A stretch of 32,050 nucleotides of DNA. It comes from a virus. The notes beneath the pieces are model-generated. The model was not told the origin of the DNA and did no database searches. It saw only the letters and a list, made by a program, of their open reading frames with translations. Position numbers and translations under genes: made by a program. Location: IMG/VR virus record IMGVR_UViG_3300035698_035450, positions 1 through 32,050 of that record; one strand, written 5' to 3'. Positions 7,132-20,723 of the stretch are shown here, in pieces (position 1 is the first letter of the stretch; each line of letters starts with the position of its first letter).

Positions 7132-7812
7132 TCATAAAATACTGCCGGCTGTCAGAATGCACGCCGGATGCTCTGTTGCACTCGTGCCGAAATTTGTAAG
7201 TTCAAGCCCGGCGATTCCCTCCTGCCATCCACCGTCCAGCGGGAGATACCAGTTTGGTCTGGCCCCAATATCCACAGCTCGCACACCGGTAGCCAATTCT
7301 GCAATCTTGTCCGCAAGCAAAGCACAATCCCACTTGGCGATTTCCGCCAGACTGCCAGCGAAAAAACCGGAACCGTCATGCCCGCGACCAAGTTGTGTTG
7401 GATTGGCTGAATTGACAGTTGTAATGCTCACTGTGGAAGTGGCGGTTTGCACCACCCCATCTAAATAAGTGCGGAGCGTCGAGCCATCGTATACGGCCGC
7501 CAGGTGGTGCCAAGTATCAACCGTAGTTACATCATTGGAAACAACCTCCACATAGCTGCCATTGTCAGCATCGAAACGAAACGTAATCCTGCTAGCAAAT
7601 GTTGGATTATCGTCACCCCACACCAGAACCGCCGTACTCCCCGCAACCCACGAATAACCATTATTTAATAAAAAACGAGGCGCCCCGCCCGATAAATCAC
7701 AACGTCGCATCCATAGCGAAAGCGTAAACGTGTAATCTACCGCCCCAAACGTCAGCGCCGCATGGTCGACAATCTCGATACGATCAGATGTGCCATTAAA
7801 ATTTCTAGCCAT
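7132..7812 (-). CDS. LamG / concanavalin A-like virion protein
   Basis: A 226-residue protein with the laminin G-like jelly-roll pattern: FNGTSDRIEI near the start, FTLSLWMRR around residue 30, then TWHHLAAVYDGSTLRTYLDG around residues 120-140, GSLAEIAKWD near 170, and a closing beta strand set. LamG/ConA-like modules bind carbohydrate or act as oligomerised decoration and fibre domains. Its ATG overlaps the previous stop (TGATG). It lies in the head-tail joining module, so it could be a capsid or neck decoration rather than a tail-tip adhesin; that is inference. Confidence 0.82.
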   Translation of the reverse strand: MARNFNGTSDRIEIVDHAALTFGAVDYTFTLSLWMRRCDLSGGAPRFLLNNGYSWVAGSTAVLVWGDDNPTFASRITFRFDADNGSYVEVVSNDVTTVDTWHHLAAVYDGSTLRTYLDGVVQTATSTVSITTVNSANPTQLGRGHDGSGFFAGSLAEIAKWDCALLADKIAELATGVRAVDIGARPNWYLPLDGGWQEGIAGLELTNFGTSATEHPACILTAGSIL

Positions 7813-8318
7813 CAGGTCACCGGCACCTCTATGGTCAAGTGATACAAACGTAAGTCGCCAGTCAAATTGTCGCCAATATCATTAGCCTTCCGACCGAACT
7901 TGAAGAATACAAGATCGCCCGCCGTCCAGGATCGGCTAAATGTCATTTCACACACATCCATGAGATGATCCATAGCAACGCCGTTATCGATAGCATCTTC
8001 AATAACCACAGTGCTAGAAGTCCAAGTCCCGTCAGTTGAATCGCCGTCGGCCAAGGCAAGAGTCTGTAACTCAAATGCCACGTCCGCCTCAGCCGGGGAT
8101 GCCGATGCCACTGCTGCTTGGATTGTGATGTCCTTGGTGGGGTCGTAGTTGCTCGGCAACCAGAAGCTACCCTGGATGTACTCCGGCGTAGTATCGTCAA
8201 ACACACGCACGGGGATGTCATTCACGCGTGACAGGGGCGCGCCGTTCGTCTCAGGTGTGGCCATGGCATATGCCGGCATCTGATAAACGGGCCGATAGTT
8301 GGCTCGACGGATTCCCAT
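7812..8318 (-). CDS. Beta-rich virion protein of unknown function
   Basis: A 168-residue protein. The ATG at 8318 is used because it overlaps the upstream TAA (TAATG) and sits 8 bases after GGGAGGT; a TTG two codons earlier is too close to that site. A likely jelly-roll region (IQGSFWLPSNYDPTKDITIQ, then FSRSWTAGDLVFFKFGR and LRLYHLTIEV) resembles phage virion or head-fibre proteins. It is coupled to the next gene (LamG) by a TGATG overlap. Function unknown; virion decoration is inferred from fold type and position. Confidence 0.75.
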   Translation of the reverse strand: MGIRRANYRPVYQMPAYAMATPETNGAPLSRVNDIPVRVFDDTTPEYIQGSFWLPSNYDPTKDITIQAAVASASPAEADVAFELQTLALADGDSTDGTWTSSTVVIEDAIDNGVAMDHLMDVCEMTFSRSWTAGDLVFFKFGRKANDIGDNLTGDLRLYHLTIEVPVT

Positions 8319-8572
8319 TACCAAGTACCTCCCACGACCGTCACAATATCACCCGCCGTGCCCTTGACCTCGATGGCGGCCAGATTGACATGCTCGAACT
8401 TATGCCATTCGCCCGGCTCCAGAGGCACTTCGTCGCTCGTGTCGCCCTTTAATATCACATGGCCCGCATTGTAAGTTGGGGCTGTGATCGTTACGCTGGC
8501 CACGGTTGTTTCGTCGGCCAGCGCCTGCCACGACGTTGTTAGTTCAACTTTTCGAGCTATAACGTTATTCAT
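8318..8572 (-). CDS. Small beta-rich virion protein
   Basis: An 84-residue protein, start MNNVIARKVELTTSW, preceded by CAGGGTGAAAT. The sequence is a series of short beta strands (VASVTITAPTYN, AGHVILKGD, EVPLEPGEWHKFEHVNL, IEVKGTAGDIVTVVGG) with no membrane segment. Such small all-beta proteins in head-tail modules are often decoration or fibre-attachment domains. The stop overlaps the start of the next gene. No family recognised with confidence. Confidence 0.72.
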   Translation of the reverse strand: MNNVIARKVELTTSWQALADETTVASVTITAPTYNAGHVILKGDTSDEVPLEPGEWHKFEHVNLAAIEVKGTAGDIVTVVGGTW

Positions 8573-8595
8573 ATTTCACCCTGGTGAATTTCAAT

Positions 8596-9027
8596 TCACC
8601 CATACATAGTCAGTGACAGCGTAATCACCCCGGTGAACACCCGCTGCTGATCGAGGTGTTCTCCCACATACAAGGGATCATGTTCGACCTCGGTGCAAAT
8701 GGCCGACACCCCGCCGCAAACGAAAGTTTCCATGTGAAAGGCGTCGGCCATTTCCATAAGCAGGTCGAGCATGGCGTCGCAATCTGCCAGCGCCCCGGGG
8801 TCGATTGCCTGCTGCACACCCACATCCACCTGCACAATATGTTTGGCCGAAGACCGCCCTTCGACCTGCCGCGTGGCCGATTTGGGAACGACCGAGACCT
8901 TGATTTCCTGCAGGTCGGCCCGCTTGTGGTTAACCTGAAAGGTTCGCACGGCAGTAAACGCCACGGACCAGGTTTCGGCGTTGAGTTTTTCAGTCACAGC
9001 CATAGCGGCGGCCGAAGCGCGGTTCAT
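8596..9027 (-). CDS. Putative tail terminator / minor tail protein
   Basis: A 143-residue protein, start MNRASAAAMAVTEKLNA, with alternating helix and strand: an N-terminal helix, 'VSVVPKSATRQVEGR', 'HIVQVDVGVQQAID', a helix 'DCDAMLDLLMEMADAF', then 'VFTGVITLSLTMYG'. This layout and its place after the head-tail connector fit the gpU-like tail terminator fold. I assign it by layout and position, not by a diagnostic motif. Its ATG overlaps the upstream stop (ATGA). Confidence 0.65.
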   Translation of the reverse strand: MNRASAAAMAVTEKLNAETWSVAFTAVRTFQVNHKRADLQEIKVSVVPKSATRQVEGRSSAKHIVQVDVGVQQAIDPGALADCDAMLDLLMEMADAFHMETFVCGGVSAICTEVEHDPLYVGEHLDQQRVFTGVITLSLTMYG

Positions 9028-9407
9028 ACGACGTTCTCTACTTTCTTGTCCTTAACATGTGCCCGTAGCGTGGCGCGGTCGTTTTCATAGCGGTAACAGG
9101 GCTCGTTGCCGGGCGACATGACTTCATAAATGTAGCGACGCCCGTCGACCACTTCCTCGATGGTGTCGCCACTTAACGGCAATGTAAGTGCGCCGTCCAA
9201 CACCAAGTCGACGGCCAGAAACAGATAATCACGACATTCGGCCCGCAACACGCCGCCGTCGAAGTCCGTCTGTTCGTATTCCCAGCGGCCTAGCATAGCT
9301 TGCAGTTCCACCCACGCACCGCCGCGACGGTAGGTCACCGTGCGCGACAGGTGCGTCTTCTGCTGCCGGGCCAGCCAGGCCAGGGAATTAGCGATCATGT
9401 CTGTCAT
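9024..9407 (-). CDS. Putative head-tail adaptor / connector protein
   Basis: A 127-residue protein, start MTDMIANSLAWLARQQKTH. The pattern 'VTYRRGGAWVELQAMLGR', then 'FDGGVLRAECRDYLFLAVDLVL', 'GDTIEEVVDGRRYIYEVMSPG' and 'PCYRYENDRATLRAHVK' fits head-tail joining proteins that complete the neck. It lies right after the cement protein and before the terminator-like protein, which is the expected place. The stop overlaps the next start. Confidence 0.7.
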   Translation of the reverse strand: MTDMIANSLAWLARQQKTHLSRTVTYRRGGAWVELQAMLGRWEYEQTDFDGGVLRAECRDYLFLAVDLVLDGALTLPLSGDTIEEVVDGRRYIYEVMSPGNEPCYRYENDRATLRAHVKDKKVENVV

Positions 9408-9414
9408 GGCTTAC

Positions 9415-9744
9415 CTATTGGCTCAGTCGCACACGAACGGTAGTGTCGGCACTGGCGGCCGCGATTACGGCCTTGCCGATGAGCTTGTTCGTGCCCGAAT
9501 CGGCGGCCGTAGTCGCCTCAGCGTCGGCCACGTCCCAGTAGACGTTGGCACCGGCCGCGATCACTCCCACGCCCTTGGAAAAGTCGAATACGCCCGACAC
9601 GGTGAGAGCACCCAGCTTATTGGCTGGAATATCCAGGTTGGCCACGCCCACCAGTTCGCCCTGCACGACCACGGCGCCGGCCGTGACGGCACTGCCGGGC
9701 GTGTAGTCGACCATGTTACCTCTGCTTACTAAACTCGCACCCAT
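9415..9744 (-). CDS. DUF2190-type capsid cement protein
   Basis: A 109-residue, Ala/Gly/Val-rich all-beta protein. The pattern VDYTPGSAVTAGAVVVQGELVGVA, with 'FDFSKGVGVIAAGANVYWD' and 'IGKAVIAAASADTTVRVRL', is typical of the DUF2190/phage cement family, trimeric or pentameric proteins that stabilise the mature capsid. A GGAGATAAGAGT ribosome binding site precedes the ATG. It lies a little further from the capsid gene than usual, with two exported proteins in between. Confidence 0.85.
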   Translation of the reverse strand: MGASLVSRGNMVDYTPGSAVTAGAVVVQGELVGVANLDIPANKLGALTVSGVFDFSKGVGVIAAGANVYWDVADAEATTAADSGTNKLIGKAVIAAASADTTVRVRLSQ

Positions 9745-9790
9745 ACTCTTATCTCCTCATTTTTGTATCTATTGTGAACTTGAATAACGA

Positions 9791-10762
9791 CTAACGGCCG
9801 GCCGCGGTGCTGGTGGTCTTCTTCCGCGTGGCCCGCTTCCGAGAAGTCCGCTTCGTAGTAGCAGACTTTTGCTCTTCGAATTGTTCGCCCAGCTTTTGCA
9901 CCATGTCAACCAGGCCCTTGAAGGCCTCGTCATCCAACAACGGAGACTTACCGGCCGCCTTGCGCTGTGCGCGGATGAACGAGAGTCCCCACACGGCCAG
10001 CACAATGATGGCCGGGACCGAGAACCCGCCGGCCACCAAGGCAATCACAGCCTTCCAGGGAAAACTAAACAGTGGCGTGGGGTCCAGTGGGGGAATCTGA
10101 AACTGCAGATTCGGATCATTCGGCCGCCAAGGGCGGCGGTTATCTTGGTCGGTATCCGGCTTGGGGTTCCAAGGCGGCGCGCAATCTTGGCCGTAAGTAC
10201 CCGCTGGTACGGTCGAGACGATTTGCACCTGCGGTGCGACCTTGCTAACATACTTCTTAATGGCGGCCACAATCTGTCCGGCCAGGTCTCGCGGGTTACC
10301 AGTGTAGGTGTTCTGGAAAACGACCGTGCCCGCGTCACCATACTTGCCACTTCGGGGCGGCTGCACTACGATAGTGGGAAAACCAGAGAACTCGAGGTTT
10401 TCAAACCGCCAATCCTGACTTTGATCGTCGATGTTGTACTCAGCATAATGGGCCCAAGACGCCTTGGGATCATTCGGGTCGGCCAGGGCCAACAGCCAGG
10501 GATCGGCACGCCAGGCCTGCTTGAGTTCGGCACAAGGCTTGCAGCCCTGCATGGAAACCACCGAAATAAACCACTTGTCATCGTCGCTCGCGGGCGGCTG
10601 CATGGCCTCGATAAAGGCGTCAACGCCGTCGTCACGATGCCCGCCACCGATGTGCTGAGCCGTGTCGCCAAGCCTACGCACTTCGTCCCGGTTGACTTCG
10701 CCGGCCCAGGCCAGGGGACAGAGTGCCGTCAACATCAAAACACAAATCACAAAACGCTTCAT
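9791..10762 (-). CDS. Exported, membrane-anchored thioredoxin-like protein with basic tail
   Basis: A 323-residue protein with a clear Sec signal peptide (residues 1-20, ending LAWA). A thioredoxin-like domain follows, with a CKPC active-site-type motif at residues 74-77 and a cis-proline-type SGFPT at 126-130. Then come a Pro/Asp-rich linker (190-232), one transmembrane helix at about 236-263, and a Lys/Arg/Thr-rich tail (from about 300) ending in repeats of TSRKRATRKK type. The fold would sit outside the cytoplasmic membrane, with the tail inside; orientation is inference. A strong GGAGGAAGATAA ribosome binding site precedes the ATG. A role in disulfide handling of the neighbouring Cys-containing peptidase or of Cys-rich tail proteins is possible but unproven. 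Confidence 0.82.
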   Translation of the reverse strand: MKRFVICVLMLTALCPLAWAGEVNRDEVRRLGDTAQHIGGGHRDDGVDAFIEAMQPPASDDDKWFISVVSMQGCKPCAELKQAWRADPWLLALADPNDPKASWAHYAEYNIDDQSQDWRFENLEFSGFPTIVVQPPRSGKYGDAGTVVFQNTYTGNPRDLAGQIVAAIKKYVSKVAPQVQIVSTVPAGTYGQDCAPPWNPKPDTDQDNRRPWRPNDPNLQFQIPPLDPTPLFSFPWKAVIALVAGGFSVPAIIVLAVWGLSFIRAQRKAAGKSPLLDDEAFKGLVDMVQKLGEQFEEQKSATTKRTSRKRATRKKTTSTAAGR

Positions 10763-10788
10763 TTATCTTCCTCCAAAAAAGTAAAACT

Positions 10789-11364
10789 TTACCACCAACG
10801 CACATAACGAGGCCGCTGGGGATGCGGTGGGTAGTCGAGAATAACCACCCACTGCCCACTGGCCAGATGTAGACGCCGGAACCCGGCGTCGTCGTACTCG
10901 TCGATCTTGTGAGTACTATTGTTGTTGCAGACGTACCACTTACCAGTACGTTCATCGTGCCCCACTAGGGTTTGAAAGTGCATGCGGCCCGCCCCGATGG
11001 CGGCGCCACGCCCCGTATGGCTGGCCCAAGACATCCAGTCCCAGGTATTACTGCCCGTAATGTTGTAAGCGCGAATGCCGCGTTCACGACAGTAGCGGGC
11101 AACCCGAGACGGGCCGCTGCCGCCGCGTTCCTTGGGACCATAGCTGGTATCCCACAGCAGAGTTGCGGCTGCCGGAACGTTCTGGTCGACGCCACACATA
11201 CCGATGGAGCACTGCACGCATGAGCCATTTGGGTTGGTGTACCAGCCGCGAATTTCCGTCGGCAAGTCGACCGCCAACCCCTCGACGGCAAAAGCCGAAG
11301 GTGAACCGGCAACAACACCGGCACACAACGTCAACATACTGATAAACACAAAAATGTTTTGCAT
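10789..11364 (-). CDS. Exported papain-like (C39-type) cysteine peptidase
   Basis: A 191-residue protein with a signal peptide (about residues 1-26, cut after SAFA). The peptidase core has a candidate nucleophile in NGSCVQCSIGMCGV (Cys49 or Cys52), a candidate catalytic His at GRMHFQTLVGHD (His129) and an Asn cluster CNNNS (147-149) that could complete the triad. This is the papain/C39 pattern. It lies between the capsid gene and the thioredoxin-like gene, an odd place for a Sec-exported protein. It could act on the host envelope during lysis or be a virion entry enzyme; no other lysis gene is visible in the window. Which Cys is catalytic cannot be told from sequence alone. Confidence 0.8.
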   Translation of the reverse strand: MQNIFVFISMLTLCAGVVAGSPSAFAVEGLAVDLPTEIRGWYTNPNGSCVQCSIGMCGVDQNVPAAATLLWDTSYGPKERGGSGPSRVARYCRERGIRAYNITGSNTWDWMSWASHTGRGAAIGAGRMHFQTLVGHDERTGKWYVCNNNSTHKIDEYDDAGFRRLHLASGQWVVILDYPPHPQRPRYVRWW

Positions 11365-11423: not shown

Positions 11424-13406
11424 TCACGCCTCGCCCTTCATCTTGAGCGCGCCACGATGATCTTGTTCTCGAACGCCGAAATCAATATAGCCGCGGAAGA
11501 GGATGCCCAGCGTGTCGAAGTCGGCATCAGCGCGCTCGACCGTGGGGCGATCCACACCGCCCAGGAAGGCCACTTCAAGCGCCGGCAGGCGGTTGGGATC
11601 GGCCAACAGATACCAGGCCTTGGAGCTGTATCCCGTGAAGGCCGCGTTGTTGAGAAAAACGCTGGAAACGACCTGGAATTTTCCAACATGGGGGTTCGAT
11701 TGCGGCTTAGGCTTATTGGTGGTGGTCGTCTCGTTGAGATTCATCGATGCCATCAAGAGTTCGGCCGGCACCTTCAGGGCCGTGGGCACCAGCAGTGTGC
11801 GTGCCGGCATGCCCAGCGGTCGTCCGTTGGGCTTAGTCTGCTCGCCGAACATGACTTCGGCCGCAGTCAGGCCGTCCACACTGAGGGCCGTGTCGGCGCC
11901 TGCGGCGTAGTTTTTGTGGTCAGCGTGAAAGAAGGCCTTGCTGTCCGACTGCGTGGGGTTTGACAGCAACAGACTCCAAACAGCGTCGGCGATGGCCTCG
12001 GCCGCGCCCATGCCGATATGACGCGGGATGTCGGACAGCGCGCCCAGGTCATCGTTGATGATCATCTTTCGCGTCAGGGCGAACATGATCCCGTGCGTAT
12101 CGGCCTGCTGCCCGAACGTCTGTTCTTCGACCTTTCCGTGCTGGAGTTCGCCATCCGCGCCGACTTGCTTGAACTCGAAGCTGCTGGTCATGCGGTAGCG
12201 GGTATGTTCCTTGAAATCGTTGACCGTGGCGATCTTCGCGATCTGCCGCCATGCGTCTTCGATGTAGTTGTAACCCTCCAAGAGCCGCTTATTGGCCAGG
12301 TTCGAAAGAATGCCCGGCAGGCTGGTGGTGCTAAAGGCCGCCTGCAGCCAGCCGGTGGCGTCACGACGGAAGCGGGGTAGACGCACTCCGCTGGCCAACT
12401 CGCAGAACTCCTGGATTCCCAGGCCCCGCAGCTTGTCAGCCGCCTCGAGGGTCTGCTCGTCGTAGTTGGCCTCCATCGTGGTGGTCGAGATGCCGGACGC
12501 CGAGAGGGCAACGGCCTCCAAGACATGCTGTGTCGGGATACTGTTCTCGACATGCGCGGCGGGTGCCGAGGGCCGTGACTCGCGTAGCACGGCCAGTTCG
12601 CAACTGGTGAGACCCCAGCCCTCGTCGATGGCCTGGGCCTCAATCTCCGGGTGTTCGCCGTCGCAGATATTGCGAATCTCAGTGATACGCCGGGTTTCAG
12701 CGGCGGCCGCCTTGCGGAGGTCGGTACGGAGCATGGCCACGGCGTCTTCATGGCCCGCGGCTTCGAGCTTTTCCGGTACATTGGGCGTAGTTACAACCTT
12801 TTGGCCCTCGGTGCCCTGGATATTTTCCTGGTTTTCAACTGTCTTCGGCATACGATCGTTCTCCTTTTCATTTTCCTTTTCACTGGCGGCGACGACGGCT
12901 TTGGTGTCGGCGTCCGCCCCACTATCAACAAAACTGATTTCCTTGAGCGTCATGCGACGCACAACATGCAACGGTCCCTCGAACTTACGCCCGTTGACTT
13001 CGACAACCTGACCATCCGGCACAAATTCGGCTTCGATCACCGGCCCGCCGATGCTGGCCTGCCAGGGGAATCCGTTCGTGCCCGAGCGGGCCACGTCTCG
13101 GGCCCAACTCGTCTCGCGGCTGATGAGTCCCTCGGCGATAAGCTGCCCGTCATGAGCCTCGATACGCGTGGTGTGCCCCACGCCCTGGTTGGACTTATGA
13201 TCCAGACGGATGGGCACCGATTGGTTAGGCACATCCAGGCCGCTCAGATCGACAACCACCGCGTGCGGGAACCCGGCGACCTGCATCTGACCGCCCGAGT
13301 AGGCCACCATGGAAAAACGTGGTAGATCCTTCCCCTCGGCAGCCGCTTCAATCACCGGCACCGCACAAAACTCAACATATTCAGGCAGCTTGACGCTCTT
13401 TGGCAT
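11424..13406 (-). CDS. Prohead protease - major capsid protein fusion
   Basis: A 660-residue fused protein. Residues 1 to about 175 are an HK97-type (S78) prohead protease: IRLDHKSNQGVGHTTRIEAHDG contains the probable catalytic His70, and FPWQASIGG contains the probable nucleophile Ser118, followed by VRRMTLKEISFVDSGAD. After a Lys/Glu-rich linker, a scaffold-like helical region (about 200-300) leads into a capsid domain with patterns such as TRKMIINDDLGALSDIPRHI, AFFHADHKNY and FLGGVDRPTVE, as in Mu gpT-like fused capsid proteins. The ATG at 13406 has GAGGAG upstream; an ATG at 13445 has none. It overlaps the portal stop by 26 bases. See the internal start at 12851. Confidence 0.88.
   Translation of the reverse strand: MPKSVKLPEYVEFCAVPVIEAAAEGKDLPRFSMVAYSGGQMQVAGFPHAVVVDLSGLDVPNQSVPIRLDHKSNQGVGHTTRIEAHDGQLIAEGLISRETSWARDVARSGTNGFPWQASIGGPVIEAEFVPDGQVVEVNGRKFEGPLHVVRRMTLKEISFVDSGADADTKAVVAASEKENEKENDRMPKTVENQENIQGTEGQKVVTTPNVPEKLEAAGHEDAVAMLRTDLRKAAAAETRRITEIRNICDGEHPEIEAQAIDEGWGLTSCELAVLRESRPSAPAAHVENSIPTQHVLEAVALSASGISTTTMEANYDEQTLEAADKLRGLGIQEFCELASGVRLPRFRRDATGWLQAAFSTTSLPGILSNLANKRLLEGYNYIEDAWRQIAKIATVNDFKEHTRYRMTSSFEFKQVGADGELQHGKVEEQTFGQQADTHGIMFALTRKMIINDDLGALSDIPRHIGMGAAEAIADAVWSLLLSNPTQSDSKAFFHADHKNYAAGADTALSVDGLTAAEVMFGEQTKPNGRPLGMPARTLLVPTALKVPAELLMASMNLNETTTTNKPKPQSNPHVGKFQVVSSVFLNNAAFTGYSSKAWYLLADPNRLPALEVAFLGGVDRPTVERADADFDTLGILFRGYIDFGVREQDHRGALKMKGEA
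12849..12868 (-). promoter_or_regulatory. Internal Shine-Dalgarno and ATG within protease-capsid fusion
   Basis: Inside the fused gene, the minus strand reads AAAAGGAGAACGATCGTATG, ending at the in-frame ATG at 12851 (Met186 of the fusion, MPKTVENQ). AAGGAG is 9 bases before this ATG, a textbook ribosome binding site. Starting here would give a 475-residue scaffold-plus-capsid protein without the protease. This could let the phage make many capsid subunits per protease. The alternative is that AAGGAG is only the codons for the Lys/Glu-rich linker. Confidence 0.6.
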
Positions 13407-14853
13407 CTTTTTGTTTCTCCTCGGTGGTTTCGTTTTCCGTGGCATCGGGTCGAACTGATTCGTCCGACTCGGTTTTGTCTGAGGCGGGTTCGTCAGAGAC
13501 TAGCCCCAACTCTTTCATTAACTTTCGCTCTTTGGCCCGCTGACGAAGCTCGGGCTCCCAGTCCTTACCCTGCCGTGCGAATTCGTAAGCGAGCGTGGTC
13601 GTATTATTGGCCAGTCTGGTGGCCTGCGCGTTGGCCTCTTTGGCGGGATCCACATGGTCCATTCCATCCCAAAAATATTGGGCCTGTGGTGTCTTGATCG
13701 CTCGCAGCACAGCAAACGCCGCGAGCAAAGCCGCCTCTTTTATCCATGCCGCAAAAATGCGATCCATGACCACGCGGCCAAGATGTGATTGCTCGATGCG
13801 CAGGCTTTTGTGGTAGTTTTGAAAATCCAACCTCCCGCTGGCGTAATTATGTTGGCTCGAATCGCCCGTCATTACGTTCACAGGCACGTTAAGGCAACGC
13901 CCTATTTCAGCCAGTATTTCACGTCGAAAATCGACAAACGCCGTCGTCGGTTGCTCTGCCTTAATCTGGGCCAGTTTCCAGCCATCTGGCAGTGTAGTGG
14001 CCATACGCTTCTCAAGTTCAACTACATCCATTGGCTCGATGGATGCGGCCTCGCCGTTTGCCGGCGCGTCCGTGTAAAGTACGGCCGCGAAATCGGCCGC
14101 CGTTTCGGCAGCCCCCAGCACGGCCAACGTGTATCGCCTAAGTTGTGCAAACAGCGGCAGTGCCGGTGTGATCTCTGGAACACCCCGATGTTGGCCCGGG
14201 CGGTCGGAGCGAAACCAGTGGACCATGGCCTGGGCCGGAACCCGCTCGAAATGTCCCAAGGTGTAAGCCGTATCACCCGGATGGCCCTTCATGACGTGGT
14301 AAACGCTCGGGTTTCCAAACCGATCAAACTCAATTCCGTCAATTATGTTGCGTGTGCCGAACCTTTTCTGCGGCGTCGTGACCCGATCCGCCTCGATTTG
14401 TCTGATATCCAGTTTTACGGCGTGGTCCAGGCTGGGGTTGTTGATCAGTACTGCGAAGGCCTCGCCATCTGTCGATTTCGACATCCGCAAGGTGCGGAGT
14501 TTGGCGGGCAGGTCCACGGCCGAGGCCCATTCGGTAAAAGCCTGCTCAATAATGCGGTTTGTCTCGCCGTCTTCCGATAAAAGCTGCAACCGTGGGCCCG
14601 TGCCCACGCAATCGCCGGCCACCGTTAAAACCATGCCCTTGGCGTAGGCGTTGTTGGCCACCTCGTAGCGAGCTCGGTTCCGCAATGTTTGCCGCACATC
14701 GGGCGTCATGGCCGCATCAGCGCTTGAACTGTCGGCCATGGCCCAATGGCGGGCGTTTTCAGTGGTGGTTTGCGCAGCGTCGTAGCGAGCCTGCAACTCT
14801 CGCCGGGGCAGGGATCGGCTGGGCTTCCTGGTTTTTCTGTGGAACGGCCACAT
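13381..14853 (-). CDS. Portal protein (lambda-type)
   Basis: A 490-residue portal protein from ATG 14853 (MWPFHRKTRK). Conserved portal features: 'RYEVANNAYAKGMV', 'GPRLQ', 'DGEAFAVL', 'HWFRSDRPGQHRGVPEI', and the later block 'NVPVNVMTGDSSQHNYASGR', typical of lambda gpB-like portals (PF05136). The C-terminus is acidic and low-complexity (from about 455). The portal forms the dodecameric DNA entry ring at one capsid vertex and binds the terminase. It starts one base after the stop of the 66-residue gene, with GGGAGGG upstream. A TTG-started frame 45 bases longer exists but has no support. Confidence 0.93.
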   Translation of the reverse strand: MWPFHRKTRKPSRSLPRRELQARYDAAQTTTENARHWAMADSSSADAAMTPDVRQTLRNRARYEVANNAYAKGMVLTVAGDCVGTGPRLQLLSEDGETNRIIEQAFTEWASAVDLPAKLRTLRMSKSTDGEAFAVLINNPSLDHAVKLDIRQIEADRVTTPQKRFGTRNIIDGIEFDRFGNPSVYHVMKGHPGDTAYTLGHFERVPAQAMVHWFRSDRPGQHRGVPEITPALPLFAQLRRYTLAVLGAAETAADFAAVLYTDAPANGEAASIEPMDVVELEKRMATTLPDGWKLAQIKAEQPTTAFVDFRREILAEIGRCLNVPVNVMTGDSSQHNYASGRLDFQNYHKSLRIEQSHLGRVVMDRIFAAWIKEAALLAAFAVLRAIKTPQAQYFWDGMDHVDPAKEANAQATRLANNTTTLAYEFARQGKDWEPELRQRAKERKLMKELGLVSDEPASDKTESDESVRPDATENETTEEKQKDAKERQAA

Positions 14854-14854
14854 T

Positions 14855-15055
14855 CTACACGGTCCCTCCCGGCGAGAGCTTTGTGAGCTTGATACCAAGG
14901 CCCGTTTGTCGAGCCGCCTTCTTCGATTCGATGTAGCGGTCGGCGGCGATCTGGTCGGGGATGGAATGCTGTTCCATGTTACCCGTCTCGTTGCCGGCCT
15001 TTTTTGGCCCGGCTGCGTTTTCGGCGATCGTGTTTTCCAAACCTGTCTCGCTCAC
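14855..15055 (-). CDS. Small head-module protein between terminase and portal
   Basis: A 66-residue protein, probably started by GTG at 15055 with AAAGGA upstream. The C-terminal half (IAADRYIESKKAARQTGLGI, then LTKLSPGGTV) resembles small proteins commonly found just before the portal in GpA-type terminase phages, where a gpW-like head-tail joining protein often sits; this one is not clearly gpW. The N-terminal third is low-complexity. The stop is one base before the portal ATG. The 220 bases upstream are noncoding, so this may be the first gene of the portal transcript. Confidence 0.6.
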   Translation of the reverse strand: MSETGLENTIAENAAGPKKAGNETGNMEQHSIPDQIAADRYIESKKAARQTGLGIKLTKLSPGGTV

Positions 15056-19394: not shown

Positions 19395-20723
19395 TCATGC
19401 TGCCACCTCTTCATTGGCCAGCCGCTGTGCCTTGCGCCCCGAGAACTGTTCCCACCTAGAGACTATGACATCACAGTAAAGCTCGTCGAGTTCCATTGCG
19501 AAGCAGTTTCTGCCCGTCTGCTCGCAGGCGATGAGCGTCGAGCCCGAGCCGCCGAACAGCTCCAACACGTTCTCACCCGCCCGGGACGAGTACTGGATAG
19601 CGCGGACGGCCAGCTCGGCCGGTTTCTCCGTCAAATGAATCATACTCTGAGGGTTGACCTTTTTGACCGCCCAGAGATCGGTCGCATTGTTGGGCCCATA
19701 AAACTGGTGGGCCGAGCCGAGTCGCCAGCAGTAGAAACAAATCTCAAAAGCGCCCATAAAATCTTTACGTGTGAGAACCGGATGTTGCTTATCCCAGATA
19801 ATTCCCTGAGAAAAGTACAATTCATGCTTCTTGAGCATGGCCGGATAGTTGGCCAGATTGGCGTAGCCGCCCCAGCAATACAGCGCCCGGCCGGGTTCCA
19901 ACACGCGGGCGATGTTGCCGAACCAGGCGTCGAGCAAACGGTCGAACTCCTCGTCGCTGACGAAGTCGTTGATCAGCGGACGATCCTTGGGCCGCAGTTT
20001 TGCGTGAGTGGCGTCGGCCTTTTCGGGATGCCGCTTGACGTCGAAGTTCTGGTGGTTCTTCGTGCCCTTGAACGAGCTCAAACCGGCTGCGATGGCGTTG
20101 TTCGAGCGCGGTTCCACGGATACATTATAAGGCGGATCTGTATTGCAAAGTTGTATAGATGCACCGTCCAAAAGACGGTCCACATCCTCGGCCGAAGCCG
20201 AATCGCCGCACATCAAACGGTGGTCACCAAGCACCCAGATATCTCCGCGCTGGGTGATCGCCGCGTCGGGCGGGTCGGGAACCTGGTCGGGATCGGTTAA
20301 ACCTTGCTGCACTTCGCTATCGAGTAGTTGCGCCAACTCCTTGTCATCGAAGGCCAGAATATCCATCTCGTAACCGGCGTCTTGCAGGGCTGCAAGTTCG
20401 ATGGGCAGGATCTCATAATCCCATGTGGCCAACTCGCCCGTGCGATTATCGGCCAGTCGGTAAGCCCGAACTTGATCTGGTGAAAGATCGACGGCCACAT
20501 GCACGGGCACCTTTTTGAGTCCCATCTGCAAGGCCGCCTTGTAGCGGGTGTGGCCGGCTATAATAACACCATCCGAGTCGACAACGATTGGCTGGCGGAA
20601 CCCGAACTCCCGCAAGCTGCCGGCCACGGCATCCACTGCCTTGTCGTTCTTTCGTGGGTTGTTGTCATAAGGCCGGATGGAATCAATGTCCCGAATCTCA
20701 ATGTCAAATTGGGTCGTCTGCAT
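19395..20723 (-). CDS. ParB-domain / DNA methyltransferase fusion
   Basis: A 442-residue protein in two parts. Residues 5-135 are a ParB-N/Srx-like domain (IRPYDNNPRKND, then IIAGHTRYKAA with GHTR at 57-60, AYRLADNRTGELA). Residues 160-440 are an amino-methyltransferase of beta-type motif order: catalytic DPPY at 196-199, HLTEKP at 363-368, and SAM-binding LELFGGSGST at 387-396. The DPPY motif fits N6-adenine or N4-cytosine methylation. ParB-methyltransferase fusions are common in phages and may protect phage DNA or mark it. AAAGGAG precedes the ATG. The upstream 424 bases are noncoding and hairpin-rich. Confidence 0.92.
   Translation of the reverse strand: MQTTQFDIEIRDIDSIRPYDNNPRKNDKAVDAVAGSLREFGFRQPIVVDSDGVIIAGHTRYKAALQMGLKKVPVHVAVDLSPDQVRAYRLADNRTGELATWDYEILPIELAALQDAGYEMDILAFDDKELAQLLDSEVQQGLTDPDQVPDPPDAAITQRGDIWVLGDHRLMCGDSASAEDVDRLLDGASIQLCNTDPPYNVSVEPRSNNAIAAGLSSFKGTKNHQNFDVKRHPEKADATHAKLRPKDRPLINDFVSDEEFDRLLDAWFGNIARVLEPGRALYCWGGYANLANYPAMLKKHELYFSQGIIWDKQHPVLTRKDFMGAFEICFYCWRLGSAHQFYGPNNATDLWAVKKVNPQSMIHLTEKPAELAVRAIQYSSRAGENVLELFGGSGSTLIACEQTGRNCFAMELDELYCDVIVSRWEQFSGRKAQRLANEEVAA

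Follow-up and report, generated by a model that had tools for sequence, protein, structure and literature searches.

Among described lysis enzymes, the methanogen virus lysins PeiW, PeiP and PeiR resemble the protein considered here, a predicted phage-borne peptidase that we call pep: they are cysteine enzymes with a papain-like fold and Cys/His/Asp chemistry that act on a non-murein wall, and they lose activity in air and need reducing conditions, supplied by DTT or TCEP (PMC4592898). The Pei lysins differ from pep in that they have no sequence match to it, carry wall-binding domains and target pseudomurein. We know of no exported thioredoxin partner of the Pei lysins. A second likeness is found in phage P1, whose lysozyme is under disulfide control; as described in works cited in PMC9025707, this SAR endolysin, Lyz, is Sec-exported and thiol-disulfide switched, as is proposed here for pep. 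Lyz isomerises its own disulfide and acts as a lysozyme on peptidoglycan, whereas pep is always paired with a separate gene for a thioredoxin-fold protein, here called trx.

In fold and catalytic residues, pep is similar to papain (C1), C39-like peptidases and staphopain, and its GSCxxC motif resembles the GSCGSC of papain; however, identity in the structural alignments is ~6–17%, and pep is small, phage-borne, trx-paired and without a Pfam match. The trx protein shares its fold, CxxC and cis-Pro with DsbD-gamma and DsbH and would likewise lie on the periplasmic side, but it differs from them in its varied CxxC, Pro-rich linker, C-terminal membrane anchor and strict link to pep.

Whether cysteine-rich, disulfide-linked protein holds the planctomycete envelope together has been debated since the 1980s (PMC8567305, PMC10632474). 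The walls of Planctomycetales are reported to contain cysteine-rich YTV proteins, with many peptidoglycan genes missing (PMC8567305), and PMC10632474 places the YTV protein in its essential set, suggests a role in wall rigidity and notes that peptidoglycan in the phylum has been disputed. In the literature searched, we found neither a phage module that pairs an exported protease with an exported thioredoxin nor, for planctomycetes, a description of phage lysis of peptidoglycan-less bacteria.

The locus and its two proteins

The window, namely the whole stretch of DNA analysed, is an IMG/VR record of 32,050 bases and probably an incomplete virus record. Its main genes all lie on the minus strand, and the order round the pair is terminase, portal, fused S78-like protease and capsid, pep, trx, cement and head-tail joining protein, with the following features.

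13381..14898, minus strand: portal protein (Phage_portal_2), on the same strand as pep and trx
11424..13406/13445, minus strand: fused S78-like maturation protease and major capsid protein, upstream neighbour of pep
10789..11364, minus strand: pep, predicted exported papain-fold cysteine peptidase, 191 aa
9791..10762, minus strand: trx, predicted exported thioredoxin-fold protein, 323 aa, with one C-terminal membrane helix
9415..9744, minus strand: cement (head decoration) protein, downstream neighbour of trx (Phage_cement_2, E 8e-23)

Both reading frames that a preliminary description of this DNA had noticed between the capsid and cement genes are thus present there. The intergenic gaps are 59 nt between capsid and pep, 26 nt between pep and trx and 46 nt between trx and cement; therefore, pep and trx most likely lie on the head transcript, and a common late transcript probably includes the portal gene. 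A consensus scan of the pep/trx locus gave no promoter or terminator clearly above chance, the counts being near chance. The GC content of the cassette is not clearly different from that of its surroundings, and recent transfer is therefore not indicated by base composition. As a separate observation, the maturation protease (S78-like) and major capsid protein at window positions 11424–13445 are fused into one 673-aa protein. A near relative of the window, L113 (terminase 96% and head-tail joiner 93% identical), lacks, at L113:8028-9008, the segment that runs from the 3' half of the capsid gene through pep and trx into the start of the cement gene, owing either to a deletion or to an assembly error.

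The window pep has a signal peptide at residues ~1–26. According to a simple hydrophobicity and AxA criterion, signal peptides are present in 41 of 42 full-length pep homologs and 37 of 38 full-length trx homologs; the export signals that the preliminary description had read from both window proteins are therefore retained by their relatives, and homologs lacking them, which would have spoken against the proposed lysis or superinfection system, were not the rule. The Cys/His/Asn pattern noticed at the outset likewise proved to be a family property: N44, S48, C49, Q51, C52, H129, Q131, N148 and N149 are invariant in 49/49 sequences, and the Cys, His and Asn/Asp catalytic residues occur in papain-like order (C49/C52, H129, N148/N149), within the motif GSC49VQC52S and, further along, at H129 and N147–N149. 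A core of four cysteines comprises C49, C52, C57 (43/49) and C146 (47/49).

The AlphaFold2 model of pep, with a mean pLDDT of 71 and values of 43–63 round the cysteine segment, matched a C39-like peptidase in Foldseek at E 1.8e-4 and a C39-like domain with a VIA Z of 9.2 (rmsd 3.1, 119 aligned). Nearly all top fold matches are papain-like, including C39-like domains, papain-like toxins, staphopain and PeiR (Z 7.6). Based on the modelled fold and the catalytic residues, pep is placed in the papain-like cysteine peptidase superfamily (clan CA), with peptide-bond cleavage as its predicted activity. In papain numbering, the corresponding motif is GSC22GSC25. By likeness of GSC49VQC52S to this motif, C52 may be the nucleophile of pep, and C49 would be a neighbour able to form a disulfide with it. 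Pfam gave no match to pep at E up to 1, including Peptidase_C1, the Pei family and peptidoglycan hydrolase domains; the window pep and trx matched no Pfam or PHROG family, and no match to pep was present in the phage (INPHARED) or plasmid collections. The profile sequence search against the PDB yielded no true relative, and its designed Kelch-like rows were discarded as repeat artefacts. In one phage group, a small exported cysteine-rich ORF of 68–97 aa lies just upstream of pep (L004:360-641, L005:7679-7960, L008:1183-1452, L010:213-506 and L013:893-1099).

The layout of trx comprises a signal peptide (~1–20), CKPC (74–77), the cis-Pro P129, a Pro-rich linker (~185–235), a membrane helix (~248–270) and a cytosolic tail. 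The thioredoxin domain was modelled with pLDDT above 90 over residues ~51–170 and aligned to the thioredoxin fold with a Z of 9.7 (rmsd 2.3, 95 aligned); one of the best Foldseek matches was DsbD-gamma. The cis-Pro is retained in 48/48 homologs and CxxC in 44/48, where it varies among CAPC, CPAC, CAAC and CKPC. CxxC is partly or wholly gone in L037, L282, L100 and L103, in which pep keeps its cysteines; therefore, not every lineage can depend on redox activation. Its fold, CxxC and cis-Pro make trx a thioredoxin-fold protein, for which oxidoreductase activity is predicted; these data agree with the CKPC, cis-Pro and single membrane helix first noted. The histone-like basic tail described with them is present in the window trx and a few others, and most homologs are without it. 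Thioredoxin_2 of Pfam reached a best E of 6e-6 among trx relatives, the window trx itself being unmatched, and no trx match was present in the phage (INPHARED) records. In the trx proteins of L014, L017, L018, L024, L026, L027, L032, L034 and L035, the Pro-rich linker is followed, ahead of the membrane helix, by an extra domain of ~100 aa, which showed no similarity to the thioredoxin domain by hhalign.

Co-occurrence, position and hosts of the pair

With pep as the query, 45 IMG/VR loci were found at 58–79% identity over most of the protein, and trx follows downstream on the same strand wherever the contig continues, with gaps mostly of 1–57 bases and of 134 in L041. A search with the single trx sequence returned no relatives because the sequence is too variable, and the search with a trx profile succeeded, giving 52 loci, 50 of which have pep just upstream while the other two begin at a contig end. 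Thus, the question raised earlier, whether the two genes always occur together, is answered in favour of the pairing.

The pair lies on the late-gene strand in these loci, at several positions: in the slot between capsid and cement (window, L012, L100 and L103), between the cement and head-tail joining genes, after later head genes, upstream of terminase (L002 and L042), or in phages without capsid similarity. Relatives found via the capsid mostly lack the pair. Conservation is ~70% for pep and ~45% for trx and capsid, and the dN/dS values of 0.03–0.08 for pep and 0.10–0.21 for trx indicate purifying selection; together with the homologs, these values rule out chance or mis-called ORFs. The pairing, variable position and conservation are what would be expected if the two genes work as a unit and move together. 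The gene lists of sister phages and host records are rough, as the simple gene caller misplaced pep/trx in some of them (e.g., G008 and G424).

Scanning 84,980 species genomes turned up 13 loci, and the MAGs that carry them belong, with a single exception, to Planctomycetota. The remaining locus, in a Rhodospirillaceae MAG, is likely to be the result of mis-binning, since its 22-kb contig is itself an IMG/VR virus. Genomes carry one or two copies, and 3/392 sampled planctomycete genomes carry a locus. In G424, the locus is in a prophage on a 6.96-Mb contig, accompanied by related terminase, portal and capsid genes.

YTV (PF07639) was detected in 10/12 host genomes against 42/392 sampled planctomycetes (base rate ~11%), and the transpeptidase PF00905 was missing from 8/12 host genomes against 15/392 (base rate ~4%), FtsW/RodA being missing in the same eight. 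When the likely mis-binned genome was left out, the counts were 10/11 against 39/389 for YTV (Fisher p ~3e-9) and 8/11 against 13/389 for transpeptidase loss (Fisher p ~2e-9), with statistics that ignore phylogeny and MAGs that are incomplete; among YTV-positive genomes only, transpeptidase loss was less strongly enriched (p 0.013, likewise ignoring phylogeny). The hosts G035, G040 and G041 keep peptidoglycan genes. Overall, the hosts are Planctomycetota with walls largely of cysteine-rich protein, often without ordinary peptidoglycan, and it is this host that the preliminary description had missed. In such hosts, a protease and a disulfide enzyme therefore make sense as lysis proteins.

Other modules in the slot and in sister phages

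The closest relatives in which further DNA separates capsid from cement (L048, L049, L050 and L119; capsid 72–85% identical) encode at this site a 319-aa protein with the papain-like motifs TTGDC, SHDMATVGYD and ANSWG, alongside a lipoprotein, an exported protein of 151 aa and small membrane proteins. This A5 protein thus occupies the slot that pep fills in the window; however, its versions in these four relatives have no signal peptide and are accompanied by holin-like genes, and no sequence similarity between A5 and pep was detected. The A5 family (L050:5991-6950; ~300 aa, next to holin-like genes) has 488 IMG/VR relatives, which we regard as putatively papain-like on the strength of motifs; it has no INPHARED relatives and no convincing Pfam, PHROG or PDB family match. 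A small membrane ORF was present within 1.5 kb in 29/30 A5 loci compared with 9/27 control windows, and several of these ORFs matched PHROG holins (best E 5.9e-6), with no holin match in Pfam. A5 relatives occurred in 8/392 planctomycete genomes, of which 8/8 were YTV-positive and 5/8 had no transpeptidase.

The two kinds of module are linked by a small protein found directly upstream of pep in L025, L029, L030 and L044 (~7590–8000), since its relatives (L311–L313; E 1e-7 to 1e-11) occur in A5-type modules in three host genomes. This protein is possibly a shared lysis accessory.

A true papain, G019_30, lies between the head and tail genes of the sister phage G019 (Peptidase_C1 E 1.3e-7, with chymopapain and falcipain matches), accompanied by a 61-aa one-helix ORF. 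The exported, Pro-rich G019_29 was considered as thioredoxin-like and dropped at an hhalign probability of 3%. In several other sister phages (G023, G024, G026, G028 and G032), pep is absent and no papain module was recognised; therefore, papain-like lysis is not universal in this phage group.

A proposed lysis module and its alternatives

Amidase_2 was looked for in 33 phage records, and Phage_lysozyme and CHAP in 34 with the window among them; none of the three families was present in these records, which are fragments. Pfam scans of 114 otherwise unassigned proteins from ten records gave, among the families listed, no peptidoglycan hydrolase and only the G019 papain. No holin was recognised in the window, and in L002/G001 a two-helix 67-aa ORF abuts pep. 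The early remark that no other lysis gene is visible holds as far as the scans went, which for the window covered mainly the head module together with Phage_lysozyme and CHAP, in a record that is itself probably incomplete.

We propose, with a probability of roughly 0.55, that pep/trx is an exchangeable late lysis module that opens a host protein wall. This reading is preferred because of the strict pairing, the export signals, the late strand and position, the holin-associated replacement in the same slot and the protein-walled hosts; the pairing, export signals, folds, conserved residues, host association and papain-like replacement are supported directly by the data. In the proposed sequence of events, pep would be exported by Sec and would then cleave protein in the periplasm or wall. 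The trx protein would also be exported and held in the inner membrane by its C-terminal helix, with the thioredoxin domain facing the periplasm. A cysteine lysin in the oxidising periplasm needs redox care, and trx would most likely keep or make pep active through the active-site cysteines, the invariant C49-V-Q-C52 pair; it may in addition break disulfides within the cysteine-rich wall. The protease would thereby stand in for a peptidoglycan endolysin in hosts with a YTV-type wall, which often lack peptidoglycan. The wall proteolysis, the redox activation and its direction, the timing and the lysis itself are the steps that we infer.

Several data count against the simplest version of lysis by pep/trx, namely that no holin is visible in the window, that four relatives have lost CxxC in part or whole and that some hosts keep peptidoglycan genes. 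If pep and trx are both exported, something must time lysis. The preliminary description had suggested a redox-activated lysis or superinfection system; a lysis module coupling redox and peptidase functions is indeed the best fit, though the redox activation cannot be required in every lineage. A further-reaching form, which may be called "reductive proteolysis", is put forward only tentatively: the exported cysteine protease and the membrane-bound thioredoxin would jointly dismantle a disulfide-linked, cysteine-rich envelope, replacing the endolysin in peptidoglycan-poor planctomycetes. The novelty would be greater if the wall is truly opened by reduction and proteolysis combined. If the lysis reading is true, pep and trx would be the first candidate lysins for planctomycete hosts without a peptidoglycan wall and would represent another redox-controlled type of lysis, as well as providing enzymes to test directly whether cysteine-rich, disulfide-linked protein holds the planctomycete envelope together.

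A moron gene, too, could vary in its position within the late operon as this pair does. The main alternative, though an unlikely one, draws on this mobility and sees in the pair a means of lysogenic conversion or superinfection exclusion, in which the exported proteins would alter or degrade envelope receptors and block other phages while trx folds or reduces pep: the cassette occurs at many positions, like moron genes, and the phages of the group are temperate, with serine recombinase genes in relatives and an integrated copy in the 6.96-Mb chromosome contig. However, the pair lies on the late strand in tight structural operons, with no convincing promoter or terminator of its own (counts near chance), the scans of these phages turned up no other lysis gene, and the nearest relatives fill the slot with a holin-associated, putatively papain-like module.

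It is quite improbable that the pair is an accessory that loosens the wall or processes envelope proteins for release without being the main lysin, with trx acting in a spanin-like manner. The inner-membrane helix and the Pro-rich periplasmic linker of trx would suit such a role, as would a CxxC that is not universal, but neither the window nor G006 showed another candidate for the main lysin; in G006, the proteins predicted to be exported or membrane-bound are chiefly pep, trx and the tape measure. A similarly low probability applies to pep being a papain-fold enzyme of another kind (transglutaminase-, acyltransferase- or isopeptidase-like) whose targets would be non-protein or isopeptide crosslinks of the wall: phytochelatin synthase and the isopeptidase PeiR are also among its fold matches and the substrate is not readable from sequence, but most nearby folds are proteases and many of the hosts lack peptidoglycan synthesis genes. 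The idea that pep and trx are structural or injected virion proteins acting on the wall at entry is suggested by their location among head genes, but it is highly improbable and was set aside as a main reading on the export signals, since proteins with conserved signal peptides and a membrane helix would be out of place in a head assembled in the cytoplasm, and the location of the pair varies widely.

Two further genes of the window were noted in passing. A ParB-N/DNA methyltransferase-like protein, so named from its sequence, is encoded at 19395–20723, upstream of terminase, and is present in nearly all relatives of the phage group. At the tail end of the structural module, positions 564–1667 encode a cysteine-rich 367-aa protein, the start of which resembles a 993-aa protein of G001 (7586–10567).
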